A stretch of 5,012 bases of DNA from Nitrospinota bacterium. GTDB taxonomy: Bacteria > Tectomicrobia > Entotheonellia > J063. The number at the start of each line of letters is the position of its first letter. Within the stretch, counting starts at the first letter, position 1. Where the stretch lies: positions 1-5,012 of the forward strand of contig RFHZ01000547.1 of assembly GCA_003696125.1 (NCBI GenBank). Reading direction: 5' to 3'. Shown piece by piece: positions 152 to 5,012 of the stretch. Position numbers and translations under genes: made by a program. The notes under the pieces were generated by a model. That model ran no database searches. It was not told the DNA's origin and saw only the letters and a list, made by a program, of their open reading frames with translations.

Positions 152-1654
152 TCAATACACAAACTGGAAGCGTCCCGCGATGAGCCAGACATCCGAGGGA
201 TCCTCCCGGGCGGCGCGTGCCGCCTGATTGGCCCCGGGAATGGTGGGATCCAGCTCAAAGAACCCGCCCGTGATGAAATAGGCCGGGGTGAGGCGGACCG
301 AGAGCTGGTCCCAGAGCTTGATCTCCAGGGGGAGCGAGATCTCGGTCCCCATATATTTACTGCCGTCTTTACTGTTCGGGTTGCCGGCGGCCGACCAGGT
401 GGGGGCCACCACCAGTCCCACAGAGGTGGTCGGGGTCGGCTTGAGGGTGTAGCCGAACATGTTAAAGATCAACCCCAGGTCATCGTTGGGGATCGTCTCC
501 ACCAGGATCAACTCATCCACCAGGTTGCCAAAGACGATCTCGGTCCCGGGAAAGAAGTTATCCGTGGTAAAGGCAAACTCGCGCGGCAGGGCACTGAGAT
601 CCTGTGTTGGTCGTTCCTTGAGATCCCCCCGCGAGCGATCACTATCCCCGGAGACGAAGAGGTTAACAAACTTGAAGTGCCCTGGTCCCAGGGGGAAGCG
701 GAGTTCGAACTTGTTGAAGATGCCGTGCCGCCGGGCCGGTTCCGGGTCTGGGGCCAGACCAGAGCTCCGCAGGCCAAAATCATCGCTGGCTGCGCGTTTA
801 GATGCCGCTCCAGACTGTTCCCAGGCGTAGGCAAAGTGGTTCTTGAAACGAAAGCGGCCGATCTGTCCGGCCACGTTGAGGCCGGTCATGTAGGCCTCAG
901 TGGTAAAGCCCTCTCCGCGGGTGGTGTTGTCGTCGATGTAGTTGAAGCCACTTCCCACCCGGAGCCCCTTGACCCAGGGGATAATCCCATCAGGGATGGT
1001 GTAGCCAAAGCTGAAGAAGTAGGCGTTTTTGGCCCGCGACTGCCGGTTTTCGGGAAATCCCCGCTGGCTGAAAGGATGCCGCTGGAGGGGTGACCAGACA
1101 AAATGGATATCGACCGGGCCCAAGGGGCCTCGTACCCAGACGCCCGGGATATCGTCCCCGGTAAAGGCACCATCGGTCAGCGGGTCGGCCCCAAAGGGGA
1201 TCAGGCCCATCAGGGCCTCCAGGTGGGTATAGGGGACATCGAACTGGAGGTAGAGGTTTTTCGTTTCTACATTGACGCCATCGGCACCGGTGCCGCCACC
1301 CGAGCCGCGTCCCACGCGATTACCGGGCAGATCGGCCCCTTCCGTGTTTTCCGCCACCCCGAGATCGAGATAGCCGATCTCCATGCCCCAGACCGCTCGC
1401 AGGTGTTCATTGGCCTTAAAGGTCCACCAGTTGCGAAAGCGCTGGCGCACCAGAAAGAGGGTATCATCGTCTTGGGCCGGGATATCGAGCTCGGTCTGCG
1501 TGTTGCCAAAGTTACTGAATTCCGAGAAGTTGGTGACACCCCATTTGATGCGGATCCGTCCCCGGGCCAGGATCTCGACCGCAGCCGTCTCAGTGGCAAG
1601 GGAGAGCAGCAGAAGTACTCCCAGGATCCAACTCCCTAGAAGGCCTTTCCTCAT
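152..1654 (-). CDS. Outer-membrane porin-like beta-barrel protein
   Basis: This is a 500-residue protein predicted to sit in the outer membrane and form a diffusion channel or an uptake pore. Residues 1-25 form a classical signal peptide: Arg-Lys at positions 2-3, a Leu-rich core at about 10-20, and a likely cut after Thr-Ala-Ala (25/26). The mature part alternates polar and hydrophobic residues in short strands with aromatic girdles, for example about 28-40, 65-80, 84-99 and 129-138. These are separated by long Gly/Asp/Asn-rich loops such as 101-127. The chain ends in ...GRFQFVY, a terminal aromatic with alternating hydrophobics as expected of a BAM-recognised C-terminus. The ATG is preceded by GAGGAGGA at 6-base spacing, which supports this start. 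The general pattern resembles the porins annotated in sulfate reducers and other deep-branching diderms, but I cannot assign a substrate. The gene appears complete and is followed by a hairpin. A 348-codon open frame on the opposite strand is judged a by-product of its codon bias. Confidence 0.85.
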   Translation of the reverse strand: MRKGLLGSWILGVLLLLSLATETAAVEILARGRIRIKWGVTNFSEFSNFGNTQTELDIPAQDDDTLFLVRQRFRNWWTFKANEHLRAVWGMEIGYLDLGVAENTEGADLPGNRVGRGSGGGTGADGVNVETKNLYLQFDVPYTHLEALMGLIPFGADPLTDGAFTGDDIPGVWVRGPLGPVDIHFVWSPLQRHPFSQRGFPENRQSRAKNAYFFSFGYTIPDGIIPWVKGLRVGSGFNYIDDNTTRGEGFTTEAYMTGLNVAGQIGRFRFKNHFAYAWEQSGAASKRAASDDFGLRSSGLAPDPEPARRHGIFNKFELRFPLGPGHFKFVNLFVSGDSDRSRGDLKERPTQDLSALPREFAFTTDNFFPGTEIVFGNLVDELILVETIPNDDLGLIFNMFGYTLKPTPTTSVGLVVAPTWSAAGNPNSKDGSKYMGTEISLPLEIKLWDQLSVRLTPAYFITGGFFELDPTIPGANQAARAAREDPSDVWLIAGRFQFVY

Positions 1655-1858
1655 CGTTTCTCCTCCTCATGATCTTGTCAGCACCATCACCCTGTTCCCA
1701 ACACCTTGCGTCCGGGCGTGACCGCCCCTGACGCGCCTGTGCACTGCTTGCTCGACCTCACCTCCTCTCTGGCGAAAAACGTTTCTCTCCCGCCGAAACC
1801 GGAGAGTGAATGGCAGCTTCTACTGTTGGTCAGATGACATCCTGTTGGTGGTAGGCGT

Positions 1859-1885
1859 CAGCCCAGGTAGGGGCTACCTGGGCTG
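1859..1885. repeat. Perfect 12-bp palindrome with 3-base loop
   Basis: CAGCCCAGGTAG (1859-1870) and CTACCTGGGCTG (1874-1885) are exact reverse complements around GGG. The stem is long, GC-rich and free of mismatches. Neither flank carries a T-run, so a simple intrinsic terminator is unlikely. It lies about 205 bases upstream of the porin ATG. It could be a regulatory dyad, a transcript-end hairpin, or a copy of an interspersed palindromic repeat; only a genome-wide count would tell. Confidence 0.7.
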
Positions 1886-1899
1886 TGGAGGAAATGCTT

Positions 1900-1922
1900 G
1901 CCTGATGGGCTCACTCTCAGGC
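1900..1922. repeat. Short inverted repeat next to the long palindrome
   Basis: GCCTGA (1900-1905) and TCAGGC (1917-1922) are complementary around an 11-base loop. They start 14 bases after the perfect 12-bp palindrome. Alone this 6-bp stem could be chance; the pairing with the adjacent stronger stem is the reason for listing it. Confidence 0.35.
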
Positions 1923-2006
1923 TGTGTGGCTTGCGGAAAGAGGGGGGTGCAAGGCTGGTGCCAGAACAGGGATTGAGAAAAGAGGGGGAAATTTTTTACA
2001 TAACAG

Positions 2007-2029
2007 CTTGTATTCCAAAGAGATACAAG
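2007..2029. repeat. Inverted repeat CTTGTAT-N9-ATACAAG
   Basis: The arms at 2007-2013 and 2023-2029 are exact reverse complements of 7 bases with a 9-base spacer, giving about two helical turns overall. They lie in a locally AT-rich patch that includes a run of T at 1992-1997. The geometry fits an operator for a dimeric regulator, but no live gene starts close by, so it may be fossil or chance. Confidence 0.35.
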
Positions 2030-2059
2030 AGCGAGTAGGGAGGGGGAAAGGCAAGGGAG

Positions 2060-2120
2060 TGGTGGTGTCTAGAGGGCAAACTGGTGGTGCATATCGTGCA
2101 GGTGGTGGAAAAGCACCACC
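2060..2120. repeat. Cluster of TGGTGGTG words and a GGTGGTG/CACCACC hairpin
   Basis: TGGTGGTG occurs at 2060-2067 and 2082-2089, and GGTGGTGG at 2101-2108. The last is followed by its complement CACCACC at 2114-2120, so GGTGGTG (2101-2107) can form a 7-bp stem with the loop GAAAAG. Any of the three upstream copies could pair with the single CACCACC block, giving mutually exclusive structures. Low-complexity triplet drift is an equally good explanation. Confidence 0.4.
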
Positions 2121-2207
2121 ACTACCCGGTAAGGCCGTACTTCTTCAATCACAGAGAAGCTTCTTAAACCAACATGCAGAGAAACAATTCTGTCTACGTA
2201 ATGGGAA

Positions 2208-2609
2208 CTACAGCCAAGAGGAGAATGGTTGCTTTCGCAGGCGATCCTTTCTGGTTCGTTCCTCCCTCATCCGTTGGAAACTATCCCGCAGTGCAGGCAG
2301 GTGTGCGAACAGGGTGGTAAAGGCACTCCGATGGAGTGTCAGCACATCGATACTGGTGATGGCCCGGACTGTAGCCGTGCGCGGTGCTTCGCACAGTACA
2401 GCGAGCTCACCGAAACACTCTCCCTCTGTGAGTCGAGCAAGAAGGGTTTCCTCGCCACCTTCTTCCTCACGCACTACTTCCACCGTTCCTCACAGGATTA
2501 CATAGACTCGATCACCCCAATCTCCTTGATGAAAGATGACTTCCCCGGATTCAAAATGAGCCCAGGTGACCTCCTCCCACCCCTAAAGGCGTCGGAAGAA
2601 CGGTAACCA
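2208..2609 (-). pseudogene. Cyclic-nucleotide-binding (CNB) domain protein, C-terminal remnant with in-frame stops
   Basis: One minus-strand frame reads through a recognisable CNB (CRP/EF-hand-kinase type) beta-roll. It starts with LPFFRRL, then shows FESGEVIFHQGDWGDRVYVIL and GTVEVV, and then the phosphate-binding cassette FGELAVLCEAPRTATVRA with its conserved Glu and Arg. It ends with a basic C-terminal helix and a TAG at 2208-2210. The frame is broken by TGA at 2490-2492, exactly where the family has one residue between VIL and GTVEV, and by TAG at 2583-2585. The TGA fits a CGA-to-TGA transition. The stretch between the second stop and FESGEVIF is shorter than usual, so residues may also be lost there. 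Everything N-terminal is missing: the neighbouring kinase sequence begins where more of this gene should lie. A GTG-initiated fragment from 2483 would hold the cassette but only half of the beta-roll. The parent could have been a CRP-like regulator or a CNB fusion such as those with FAD-dependent reductases; a C-terminal helix-turn-helix is not visible. Confidence 0.7.
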
Positions 2610-3010
2610 TTGACACGCACGGCCTGACAGGGAGGCTACCACGTGAGATAGAAACGATCCTCTTTCGTATCGCCCAGGAGACGATGAGTAATGTTACTCG
2701 CCACAGTAAAGCCAGACACCTTACCATCTCTTTAGAGTGTGCCCAGGAGCAGGTCGTTATGACCTTGACAGACGATGGGCAAGGTTTTGATCCCTCCACG
2801 GTGGTTTCGGCACCGGATCAGAGTCGAGGATTAGGGATTGCCGGTATGCGGGAGCGCGCTTCGCTAGTAAGTGGTCGAGTGACCGTGGACAGTGCTCCTG
2901 GTCGAGGGACCATGGTACGTGTCACCATTCCTCTCTCTCCGATATTCAACACCAAAGGAGATCGTCAGAGCCAAGGAGGCAGAGACCAATGTCGGCACTC
3001 ATCCGCCTGA
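2591..3010 (+). pseudogene. NarX/LiaS-type sensor histidine kinase, 5'-truncated (HATPase end only)
   Basis: The frame is open from 2570, and kinase-like sequence begins at about 2591-2605 with VTIDTHGLTGRLP. It then shows the family's N-box (LFRIAQETMSNVTRHSKA, key Asn at 2690-2692), the D-box DDGQGFD (2771-2791), the Gly-rich lid RGLGIAGMRERA (2825-2860) and GRGTMVRVTIPL (2900-2935). The ATP-binding domain of a HisKA_3-class kinase is therefore essentially complete. The sensor, membrane segments and the dimerisation/phospho-acceptor His helix are absent. The first in-frame ATG (2684) falls inside the N-box, and no ATG, GTG or TTG precedes it in the open frame, so no sensible protein can be made. 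The 3' end overlaps the following regulator start by 22 bases, the usual arrangement of a coupled kinase-regulator operon. It is a truncated gene whose 5' part was replaced by the oppositely oriented CNB remnant. Confidence 0.75.
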
Positions 3011-3254
3011 TCATCGCTGATGACCATGCTGTAGTACGAGAGGGTCTGGTAGCTTTGCTCGAGGAGGAAGCGGATCTGGAGGTGATAGGGCAGGCTGGTA
3101 ATGGTACCGAGGCGGTGGCCTTGGTACGACAACATCGCCCAGATATCGCCCTGCTGGATATCACCTTATTCTCACCATGCACGAAGAAGCCTTCTTCTTT
3201 GAAGCCCTGCGTGCCGGTGCCGCCGGTTACGTGCTCAAAGGGGTTCACAGCGAG
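2989..3254 (+). pseudogene. NarL/FixJ-type response regulator, receiver domain with internal deletion and frameshift
   Basis: The start is well defined: AAGGAGG at 2973-2979 lies 9 bases before ATG 2989. Residues 1-59 are a normal receiver N-half: beta-1 LIRLIIADDH with the acidic pair Asp11-Asp12, VREGL, and the phospho-acceptor in IALLDIT (Asp57). After Thr59 the frame changes, and reading continues one frame over at 3166 with LILTMHEEAFFFEALRAGAAGYVLKG. That supplies the conserved Thr, the Ala-rich helix and the Lys of beta-5. In the family about 22 residues (MPGxxG and helix 3) separate these blocks, so roughly 65 bases are missing and the deletion is not a multiple of three. In the original frame translation would end at 3258. 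The LuxR-type DNA-binding domain is absent: homology stops at GVHSE (about 3254), where cupredoxin sequence starts. It formed an operon with the truncated kinase upstream. Neither signalling nor DNA binding can be expected. Confidence 0.8.
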
Positions 3255-3383
3255 GTAAGGTTATATTTTAGGGTTCCGCCTGATGCCCAGGGGCAGTGGG
3301 AGTTTGGTAGCTTCTTGTCCGGACACTATGAAGCCGGTATGAAAGGAGCGATGGTGATTCTACCAGCCTCACCATCTCTGTAA
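3255..3383 (+). pseudogene. Cupredoxin (blue-copper protein), C-terminal remnant fused in frame to the regulator remnant
   Basis: The frame that carries the regulator C-half continues into RVPPDAQGQWEFGSFLSGH and YEAGMKGAMVILP, ending at TAA 3381-3383. This is the C-terminal copper loop of plastocyanin/sulfocyanin-like cupredoxins, where a Cys, a His and a Met ligand follow in the order C-x4-H-x4-M, commonly written as CxxPGHYEAGMKG. Here His (3324-3326) and Met (3339-3341) are kept, but the Cys position is Ser (AGC, 3309-3311) and the usual Pro before Gly-His is Ser. Without the Cys thiolate a type 1 copper site cannot form. The N-terminal strands, the first His ligand and the signal peptide are missing. 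The joint lies near 3255. The fragment probably comes from a periplasmic electron carrier gene that has been broken by rearrangement. The assignment rests on this one loop, which is distinctive but short. Confidence 0.6.
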
Positions 3384-3677
3384 AGCCTTTCTAGCAGCCC
3401 ATATCAGGGGGGTGTTTCCAGAAAACTCTCTACCCATCGCTGACAGATAATGGCCCCCTTCCCAGGTGACAAAAGCGATCCAGTGGCAAGCCGCAACTGT
3501 ACCAGCCAGGATACGGCTGCGGCCTGCTGCTGGATCCGATCCGCTACAGCAGTCGTCAAACATGCCGAAAGATGCTACAATATCCTCCAGGAAGGGCTGA
3601 TCATTTAGCGACTCTTCCTGGGCCTGAAACGGTATTTGCCCCTCACAGCGATCTCTACACTGGATTTTGTCCGAACG
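3369..3677 (-). other. Unassigned open frame, no family recognised
   Basis: The minus strand is open for about 102 codons between TAA (3678-3680) and TGA (3369-3371), with an ATG at 3563 but no good Shine-Dalgarno before it. The translation looks moderately protein-like (for example LNDQPFLEDIVASFGMFDD upstream of and across the ATG, then CHWIAFVTWEGGHYLSAMG). It ends with SGNTPLIWAARKA, which resembles the ankyrin-repeat core GNTPLhWAA. A second such core cannot be placed at the usual 33-residue spacing (CHWIA lies 27 away), so the ankyrin reading is weak. Its 3' end overlaps the cupredoxin remnant by 15 bases. It may be one more gene fragment in the decay zone, or non-coding. Confidence 0.2.
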
Positions 3678-3764
3678 TTACTCCTTACTTGCCGGTAAGA
3701 CTGAAGTAGAGACATCCTGTCGGTAAGAGCGGGGAGACTTTGGAGAGAACAAGGAGAGCACAGC
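3384..3764. other. Region between the decay zone and the dehydrogenase; presumed dehydrogenase leader
   Basis: Apart from the unassigned minus-strand frame I see no gene here. The 3' part should contain the dehydrogenase promoter, but no hexamer pair stands out. Possible regulatory marks are the dyad CTTAC-N6-GTAAG (3684-3699) and a direct repeat CGGTAAGA at 3693-3700 and 3721-3728, 28 bases apart start to start. Both are short. The ribosome-binding site AAGGAG (3751-3756) ends 8 bases before the ATG at 3765. Confidence 0.4.
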
Positions 3765-4829
3765 ATGGAATCTTTGCTCAGATCCTGGGATGGAGAGGCT
3801 GTCATCATTCATTTTGATCACCCTACCGGCGCCTGGATCGTCATCGCCATCCATTCGACTCGCCTGGGTCCGGCCGGAGGCGGTACCCGGATGAAGACCT
3901 ACCCGGATCTGCCTGCGGCGGTCCAGGACGCCATGCGTCTTGCGGCAGCCATGACGTATAAGTTTGCCATTCCCGGTATCGCCATGGGAGGAGGGAAGGC
4001 GGTCATCGCCCTTCCTCCTGACTTCGACCAGCGATTACGTCCCACCCTGCTACGACACTATGGGACCCTGGTGCACCAGCTTCGCGGCCTGTTCTACACC
4101 GGACCCGATGTCGGAACCTCGGCCGCAGATATGGACATCATTGCAGAAACCGGGGCTCCCTATATCTTTGGACGTACTCCAGCAGCGGGCGGGGCAGGCG
4201 ATACCGGCCCGCTCACGGCAATAGGGGTGTTTACCGGGATGCAGGTTACCTGCGCCCAGCTCTTTGGATCTCCTTCGCTTCACCGACGCCGGATCCTTGT
4301 CCAGGGGGCCGGGAGCGTGGGAAGATCCCTGATCGAGCGCCTGTGTGCCGCCGGGGCGGAGGTCTACTTTAGCGATATCGACGAGGAAGTGGTACAGGAG
4401 CTCTTAAAGACCCTGCCGGTAACGTTCGTTGCTCCTGACGATGTGTACACGACAGAGTGCGACATCTTTGCCCCCTGTGCCCTGGGCGGTATCCTCAACC
4501 GGGATACGATCCCTCTACTGAAGTGTAAGGCAGTGGTTGGGGCGGCCAACAACCAGCTTGCCACCCCGGAAGATGCAGACAGGCTCCAGGCGCGGGAGAT
4601 CCTCTATGCACCCGACTACGTGGTCAATGCCGGTGCTGTCCTGGGTATTCCGGGTATAGAGACCATGGGCTGGTCGCAGGCAGAGGCAGAGCAACGGGTG
4701 ATCGAAGGCATCCGGCACGCCTTACAAGAGATCTTCCACCTGGCGACCACAGAAGGCATGACAACCGAGATGGCTGCCCGTCGTGTGGCTGAAGCCCGGC
4801 TTGCCTCTTCTCCTAAAGGGGATGCTTAG
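3765..4829 (+). CDS. Leucine/valine/phenylalanine-type (branched-chain) amino acid dehydrogenase
   Basis: This 354-residue protein belongs to the Glu/Leu/Phe/Val dehydrogenase superfamily. It is expected to catalyse reversible NAD-dependent oxidative deamination of a hydrophobic amino acid to its 2-oxo acid and ammonia in the cytoplasm. The N-terminal catalytic domain has GPAGGGTRM (35-43), TYK (Lys66) and GGGK (Lys78, catalytic Lys), and the catalytic Asp in PDVGT (Asp115). The Rossmann domain has QGAGSVG (180-186), with an acidic residue after beta-2 (FSDID, Asp204) that favours NAD over NADP. It is followed by CDIFAPCALGGILN (232-245), GAANNQL (259-265) and YAPDYVVNAGAV (281-292). Length and N-terminus line up with Bacillus leucine dehydrogenase (about 366 residues), and AAGGAG at 8-base spacing supports the ATG. 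The pocket residue that is Leu in GPALGG of Bacillus enzymes is Gly38 here, so the preferred substrate is uncertain (leucine, valine, phenylalanine or another). The gene appears intact. It is convergent with the next gene, with a 17-base overlap. Confidence 0.92.
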   Translation: MESLLRSWDGEAVIIHFDHPTGAWIVIAIHSTRLGPAGGGTRMKTYPDLPAAVQDAMRLAAAMTYKFAIPGIAMGGGKAVIALPPDFDQRLRPTLLRHYGTLVHQLRGLFYTGPDVGTSAADMDIIAETGAPYIFGRTPAAGGAGDTGPLTAIGVFTGMQVTCAQLFGSPSLHRRRILVQGAGSVGRSLIERLCAAGAEVYFSDIDEEVVQELLKTLPVTFVAPDDVYTTECDIFAPCALGGILNRDTIPLLKCKAVVGAANNQLATPEDADRLQAREILYAPDYVVNAGAVLGIPGIETMGWSQAEAEQRVIEGIRHALQEIFHLATTEGMTTEMAARRVAEARLASSPKGDA

Positions 4830-5012
4830 CGATCTCCTCCTCGTTCAGCTCCGTGCCCCAGCCCGGTTTGTTGGGAATCAAGAGATGCCCCTCTTCGATC
4901 ACCGGCGGATCGGTCACGATTGCATCCTTCCAGGGCACATCATCCACATCGGTTTCCAGGATGCGCACGTTGGGAACACAGGCAGCCAGATGGGCACTCA
5001 TCAAGGTGGAGA
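4813..5012 (-). CDS. Mandelate racemase/muconate lactonizing enzyme family protein, C-terminal part (continues beyond the right edge)
   Basis: The frame is open from the window edge to TAG at 4813-4815 and gives the last ~65 residues of an enolase-superfamily protein. SAHLAACVPNVRILE aligns by eye with the mandelate racemase C-terminus (SAHLLAATPTAHWLE). This places the Glu at 4954-4956 on the conserved Glu that acts as electrophilic catalyst in mandelate racemase (Glu317). DVPWKDAIV, a Gly-rich turn, then LLIPNKPGWGTEL and a short terminal helix EEEIAKHP follow, typical of the dehydratase/racemase branch. The TTG at 5002-5004 and ATG at 4999-5001 lie inside the domain and are not starts; the open frame runs through them to the edge. 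The barrel with the metal ligands and the Lys/His bases is outside the window, so substrate (sugar acid, mandelate-like or other) cannot be told. Its stop lies within the 3' end of the convergent dehydrogenase gene. Confidence 0.8.
   Translation of the reverse strand, partial: STLMSAHLAACVPNVRILETDVDDVPWKDAIVTDPPVIEEGHLLIPNKPGWGTELNEEEIAKHPL

Follow-up and report, generated by a model that had tools for sequence, protein, structure and literature searches.

A gene-free zone with four gene remnants, probably left by three deletions in a single gene neighbourhood

Gene content and composition of the window

The analyzed window is the whole of contig C897 (5012 bp) from a MAG of 4.18 Mb in 990 contigs, estimated as 94.8% complete and 8% contaminated. 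Two genes on either side of its central part are intact, as the initial annotation had proposed. The first is a porin gene (152–1654, minus strand), a 500-aa open frame that matches the NCBIfam model DESULF_POR1 with an E-value of 1e-17, below the cut-off of the model, and has a 57% identical paralogue within the same genome. The second encodes a Glu/Leu/Phe/Val (ELFV) dehydrogenase (3765–4829, plus strand; PF00208 and PF02812). It is followed by the C-terminal end of an MR_MLE (enolase-superfamily) gene (4813–5010, minus strand; PF13378, E-value 2.3e-12), which is cut by the contig end.

No intact gene was found between the porin and dehydrogenase genes (1655–3764). At ~2.1 kb, this zone is wider than the ~1.2 kb originally described. 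It contains pieces of a CNB-domain gene, a sensor histidine kinase (HK), a response regulator (RR) and a cupredoxin, and translated and profile searches bear out all four proposed identities (PF00027, PF02518, PF00072 and AcoP/CopI, respectively). The G+C content is even across the zone and amounts to ~0.52–0.55, compared with ~0.60 in the flanking genes. The GC3 values of the four pieces range from 0.50 to 0.58, whereas fragments of 115 long ORFs from the same genome average 0.69, and the codon score of the HK piece falls at the 2nd percentile; the porin and dehydrogenase genes have GC3 typical of the genome. Because a foreign origin could equally lower GC3, these values support decay but do not prove it.

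Coding density was surveyed in ~280 kb of sampled contigs, with contigs under 3 kb excluded. A simple gene caller overlooked two real genes in this sample, an amidase and a PCYCGC gene, and the longest gaps were therefore inspected by hand. L199 had the longest called gap, of 1.6 kb, which turned out to be an intact gene overlooked by the caller; an 878-nt gap in L181 contains the PCYCGC gene, and a 924-nt gap in L184 has no Pfam match in the tested frames. After this checking, no gene-free stretch of comparable length was left in the ~280-kb sample; thus the zone is unusual for this genome and does not reflect genome-wide decay.

Several further features of the window were recorded. The dehydrogenase is 60–68% identical to MAG proteins of Chloroflexota, Pseudomonadota and Zixiibacteriota (68% in an Anaerolineales MAG) and at most 44% identical to homologues in class-level relatives; since the identity across phyla exceeds that within the class, these values suggest that the gene was acquired by horizontal transfer. 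The MR_MLE gene (4813–5010, minus strand, in the window) has a homologue in G003 (3126–4070, minus strand, in L058) that lies within 5 kb of a dehydrogenase homologue, and the end present in the window is 62.5% identical to the G003 protein over 64 residues. It is possible that the two genes form a functional pair. A perfect 12-bp palindrome, CAGCCCAGGTAG-GGG-CTACCTGGGCTG, is located upstream of the porin gene (1859–1885) and has no further copies in the genome; it is perhaps an operator or a terminator. Finally, the minus strand of 3369–3563 encodes SGNTPLIWAARKAL, with a likeness to ankyrin repeats that is below significance, and may possibly be one more remnant.

The CNB remnant

The CNB-domain gene remnant occupies 2208–2609 on the minus strand and lacks its 5' part. 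When 2208–2648 (minus strand) was translated with stops written as X, the match to PF00027 covered positions 3–87 of 89 with an E-value of 1.2e-25. The domain is thus nearly complete, contrary to the initial annotation, which had taken the remnant for merely a C-terminal piece. Apart from the self match, relatives of it in the genome show 25–38% identity. Two in-frame stops precede the natural stop of the gene: a TGA within the domain (2490–2492, minus strand), so that no open frame holds the whole domain, and a TAG close to the junction with the HK piece (2583–2585, minus strand), perhaps on the border of the homology or beyond it. Selenocysteine insertion or an alternative genetic code was considered for these stops and rejected, as one of them is TAG and the TGA is not at a Cys position.

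Remnants of a kinase–regulator operon

The NarX/DegS-like sensor HK remnant (2594–2980, plus strand) consists of the ATPase domain only, in agreement with its earlier description as the ATPase end, and matches positions 3–110 of 111 in PF02518 (E-value 3.9e-15). It is 46% identical to an intact kinase of the same genome (G000:C574, 618 aa), relative to which ~500 N-terminal residues are missing, including the ERxRIARELHD region with the phospho-acceptor His. No stop interrupts the frame over 146 codons, and the N, G1 and G2 motifs are conserved, whereas the first start codon of the frame, ATG 2684, falls within the N-box helix.

The NarL-type RR remnant (2989–3252, plus strand; PF00072) is a partial receiver in two frames, matched by tblastn at 3001–3168 and 3165–3239. 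The receiver had been described as having a hole, and the comparison confirms this: the frame changes near 3163–3165, and 22 receiver residues are missing relative to the partner regulator of the C574 kinase. Nearly everything beyond the conserved Lys is gone, and the whole DNA-binding domain is absent.

Intact HK and RR genes adjoin in the same order in C574 and C539 of this genome and in two class-level relatives (G001 and G002), and on this basis the HK and RR pieces are identified as the remnant of one operon. The initial count of four unrelated remnants was therefore overstated; the zone contains three units. In gene order and domain sequences the remnant resembles the NarX/NarL or DegS/DegU operons, in which a kinase is followed by a LuxR-type regulator. 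It differs from them in that the kinase lacks the sensor and His-containing domains, retaining the ATPase part alone, whereas the regulator lacks part of the receiver as well as the LuxR-type, DNA-binding output domain.

The cupredoxin remnant

The fourth piece (3255–3383, plus strand) appears to be the C-terminal copper-loop part of a cupredoxin. Its best PDB match is AcoP (7z3b, E-value 0.0012), and among NCBIfam models it matches CopI (E-value 0.01); no Pfam match was obtained for it. With ~35 residues left, this is a weak assignment and the weakest of the four. The copper loop proposed earlier is retained in part: the His-x4-Met loop, in which the His and Met ligands are kept, and the strand before it agree with the C-terminal pattern of AcoP/CopI-like cupredoxins, but the overall match is weak and the position of the Cys ligand, which is Cys in the relatives, is occupied by Ser (AGC, 3309–3311).

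Joints between the pieces and the proposed deletions

The pieces meet or are interrupted at three joints. At joint 1 (2558–2609, the limits of both homologies) the CNB gene on the minus strand and the HK gene on the plus strand abut head to head, and each of them lacks its 5' part. Joint 2 (3163–3165) lies within the receiver, where ~64–67 nt were deleted with a change of frame and a loss of ~22 residues. Joint 3 (3249–3258, from translation, alignment and hits) connects the RR without its 3' part to the cupredoxin without its 5' part.

We conclude that the zone is most probably a set of pseudogenes produced by three deletions in one ordinary gene neighbourhood (probability roughly 0.75). Homology is recognizable in every piece, weakly in the cupredoxin, and essential parts or the open frame have been lost: the CNB domain contains a stop, the receiver has a frame-changing hole, the HK lacks its His region and the RR its output domain. 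The absence of an internal stop in the HK piece stands against decay.

The prior neighbourhood and the order of events are inferred as follows. In the ancestral layout, the plus strand would have carried an HK–RR operon and, after it, a cupredoxin gene, with a CNB gene transcribed divergently from the minus strand in front of the operon. The first deletion would have removed the 5' ends of the CNB and HK genes along with the intervening promoter region; as the two genes are divergent and both lost their 5' ends at one joint, a single deletion accounts for both. The second would have taken ~64–67 nt from within the receiver, breaking the frame, and the third would have extended from the remainder of the RR into the cupredoxin. 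Point mutations (the stops, the Cys to Ser change and the A+T drift) may have occurred after or alongside these deletions. Given that HK and RR belong to one operon and that end losses are paired at the joints, three deletions are enough. The repeated deletions suggested initially thus remain the simplest account, with one event for each joint.

Searches for the locus elsewhere yielded no intact counterpart. A DNA search across 40 related genomes, the closest of which are class-level relatives, found no syntenic locus; four genomes share the class of the MAG. The porin query had no match among genome contigs, and the dehydrogenase query retrieved 80 loci, none of which carries the CNB, HK, RR and cupredoxin set. 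No genome was found with an intact CNB/HK–RR/cupredoxin arrangement, and the class-level relatives have neither CNB nor cupredoxin beside HK–RR.

In Salmonella, bacterial pseudogenes have been shown to be quickly removed by deletion, and deletion is the usual fate of inactivated bacterial genes (Kuo and Ochman 2010, PMC2916853). The zone resembles the pseudogene clusters that deletion bias generates in bacteria in truncation, stops, frame-changing deletions and compositional drift beside intact genes; it differs in being a single locus in an uncultured lineage. It represents ordinary local gene decay of a common kind, and nothing in it points to a new system.

Alternative explanations

The contig might unite sequences that lie apart from each other in the cell. 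It is short and belongs to a fragmented MAG of 990 contigs with 8% contamination, and the absence of the joint sequences from viral contigs is also in line with misassembly. However, damage is internal to the pieces as well (the stop in the CNB domain, the Cys to Ser change), HK and RR stand in their natural operon order, composition is even over the zone, and the bin has no second copy of any piece that could produce a chimaera; we consider this explanation unlikely. Equally unlikely is the old mobile-element hot spot offered as an option by the initial annotation, in which events of transposition or integration would in time have imported or cut the pieces. The proximity of several truncated genes in two orientations speaks for it, and low GC3 might suit foreign DNA. 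Pfam scans, however, revealed no transposase or integrase remnant, there is no transposase-like ORF, and no element ends lie at the breakpoints. Repeats within the zone do not exceed what chance would give, and none at the joints is significant. An imperfect 14-nt repeat (1836 and 3711) was considered as a duplication bracketing the zone and discarded, since similar repeats arise by chance in the window; it occurs nowhere else in the genome. Nor do the pieces have copies elsewhere in the genome, and plasmids gave no DNA match and by protein only generic kinase and cupredoxin matches.

That the pieces are still in use, as short expressed proteins (e.g., ATPase-only or receiver-only) or as a regulatory region, is very improbable. 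The stop-free HK frame with its conserved motifs would fit such a role, but its first start lies inside a helix of the domain, the RR switches frame inside the receiver, the CNB domain holds a stop, and no Rfam family matches. More speculative still is the idea that the site is a deletion hot spot specific to this lineage and that the HK ATPase piece continues to be expressed from it as a separate small protein with a new role.

A candidate selenoprotein elsewhere in the genome

The PCYCGC-motif protein recovered from the gap in L181 (G000:C810; 3417–3942, plus strand; PF13798, E-value 5.2e-10) is encoded with an in-frame TGA (3842–3844) in the context HAST-stop-GICVEEA, at a position where Cys is presumably expected in this family. 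A gene for SelB is present in the genome (385.9 bits against a cut-off of 242), and downstream of the TGA there is a GC-rich hairpin (z -1.9). The gene is a candidate selenoprotein gene rather than a pseudogene.

Implications

The zone provides a compact example of the loss of a gene neighbourhood, as three joints account for four damaged genes. It also calls for caution, in that adjacent remnants should not be taken as independent events. If sister strains are sequenced, the locus could help to establish when genes were lost in this poorly sampled lineage.
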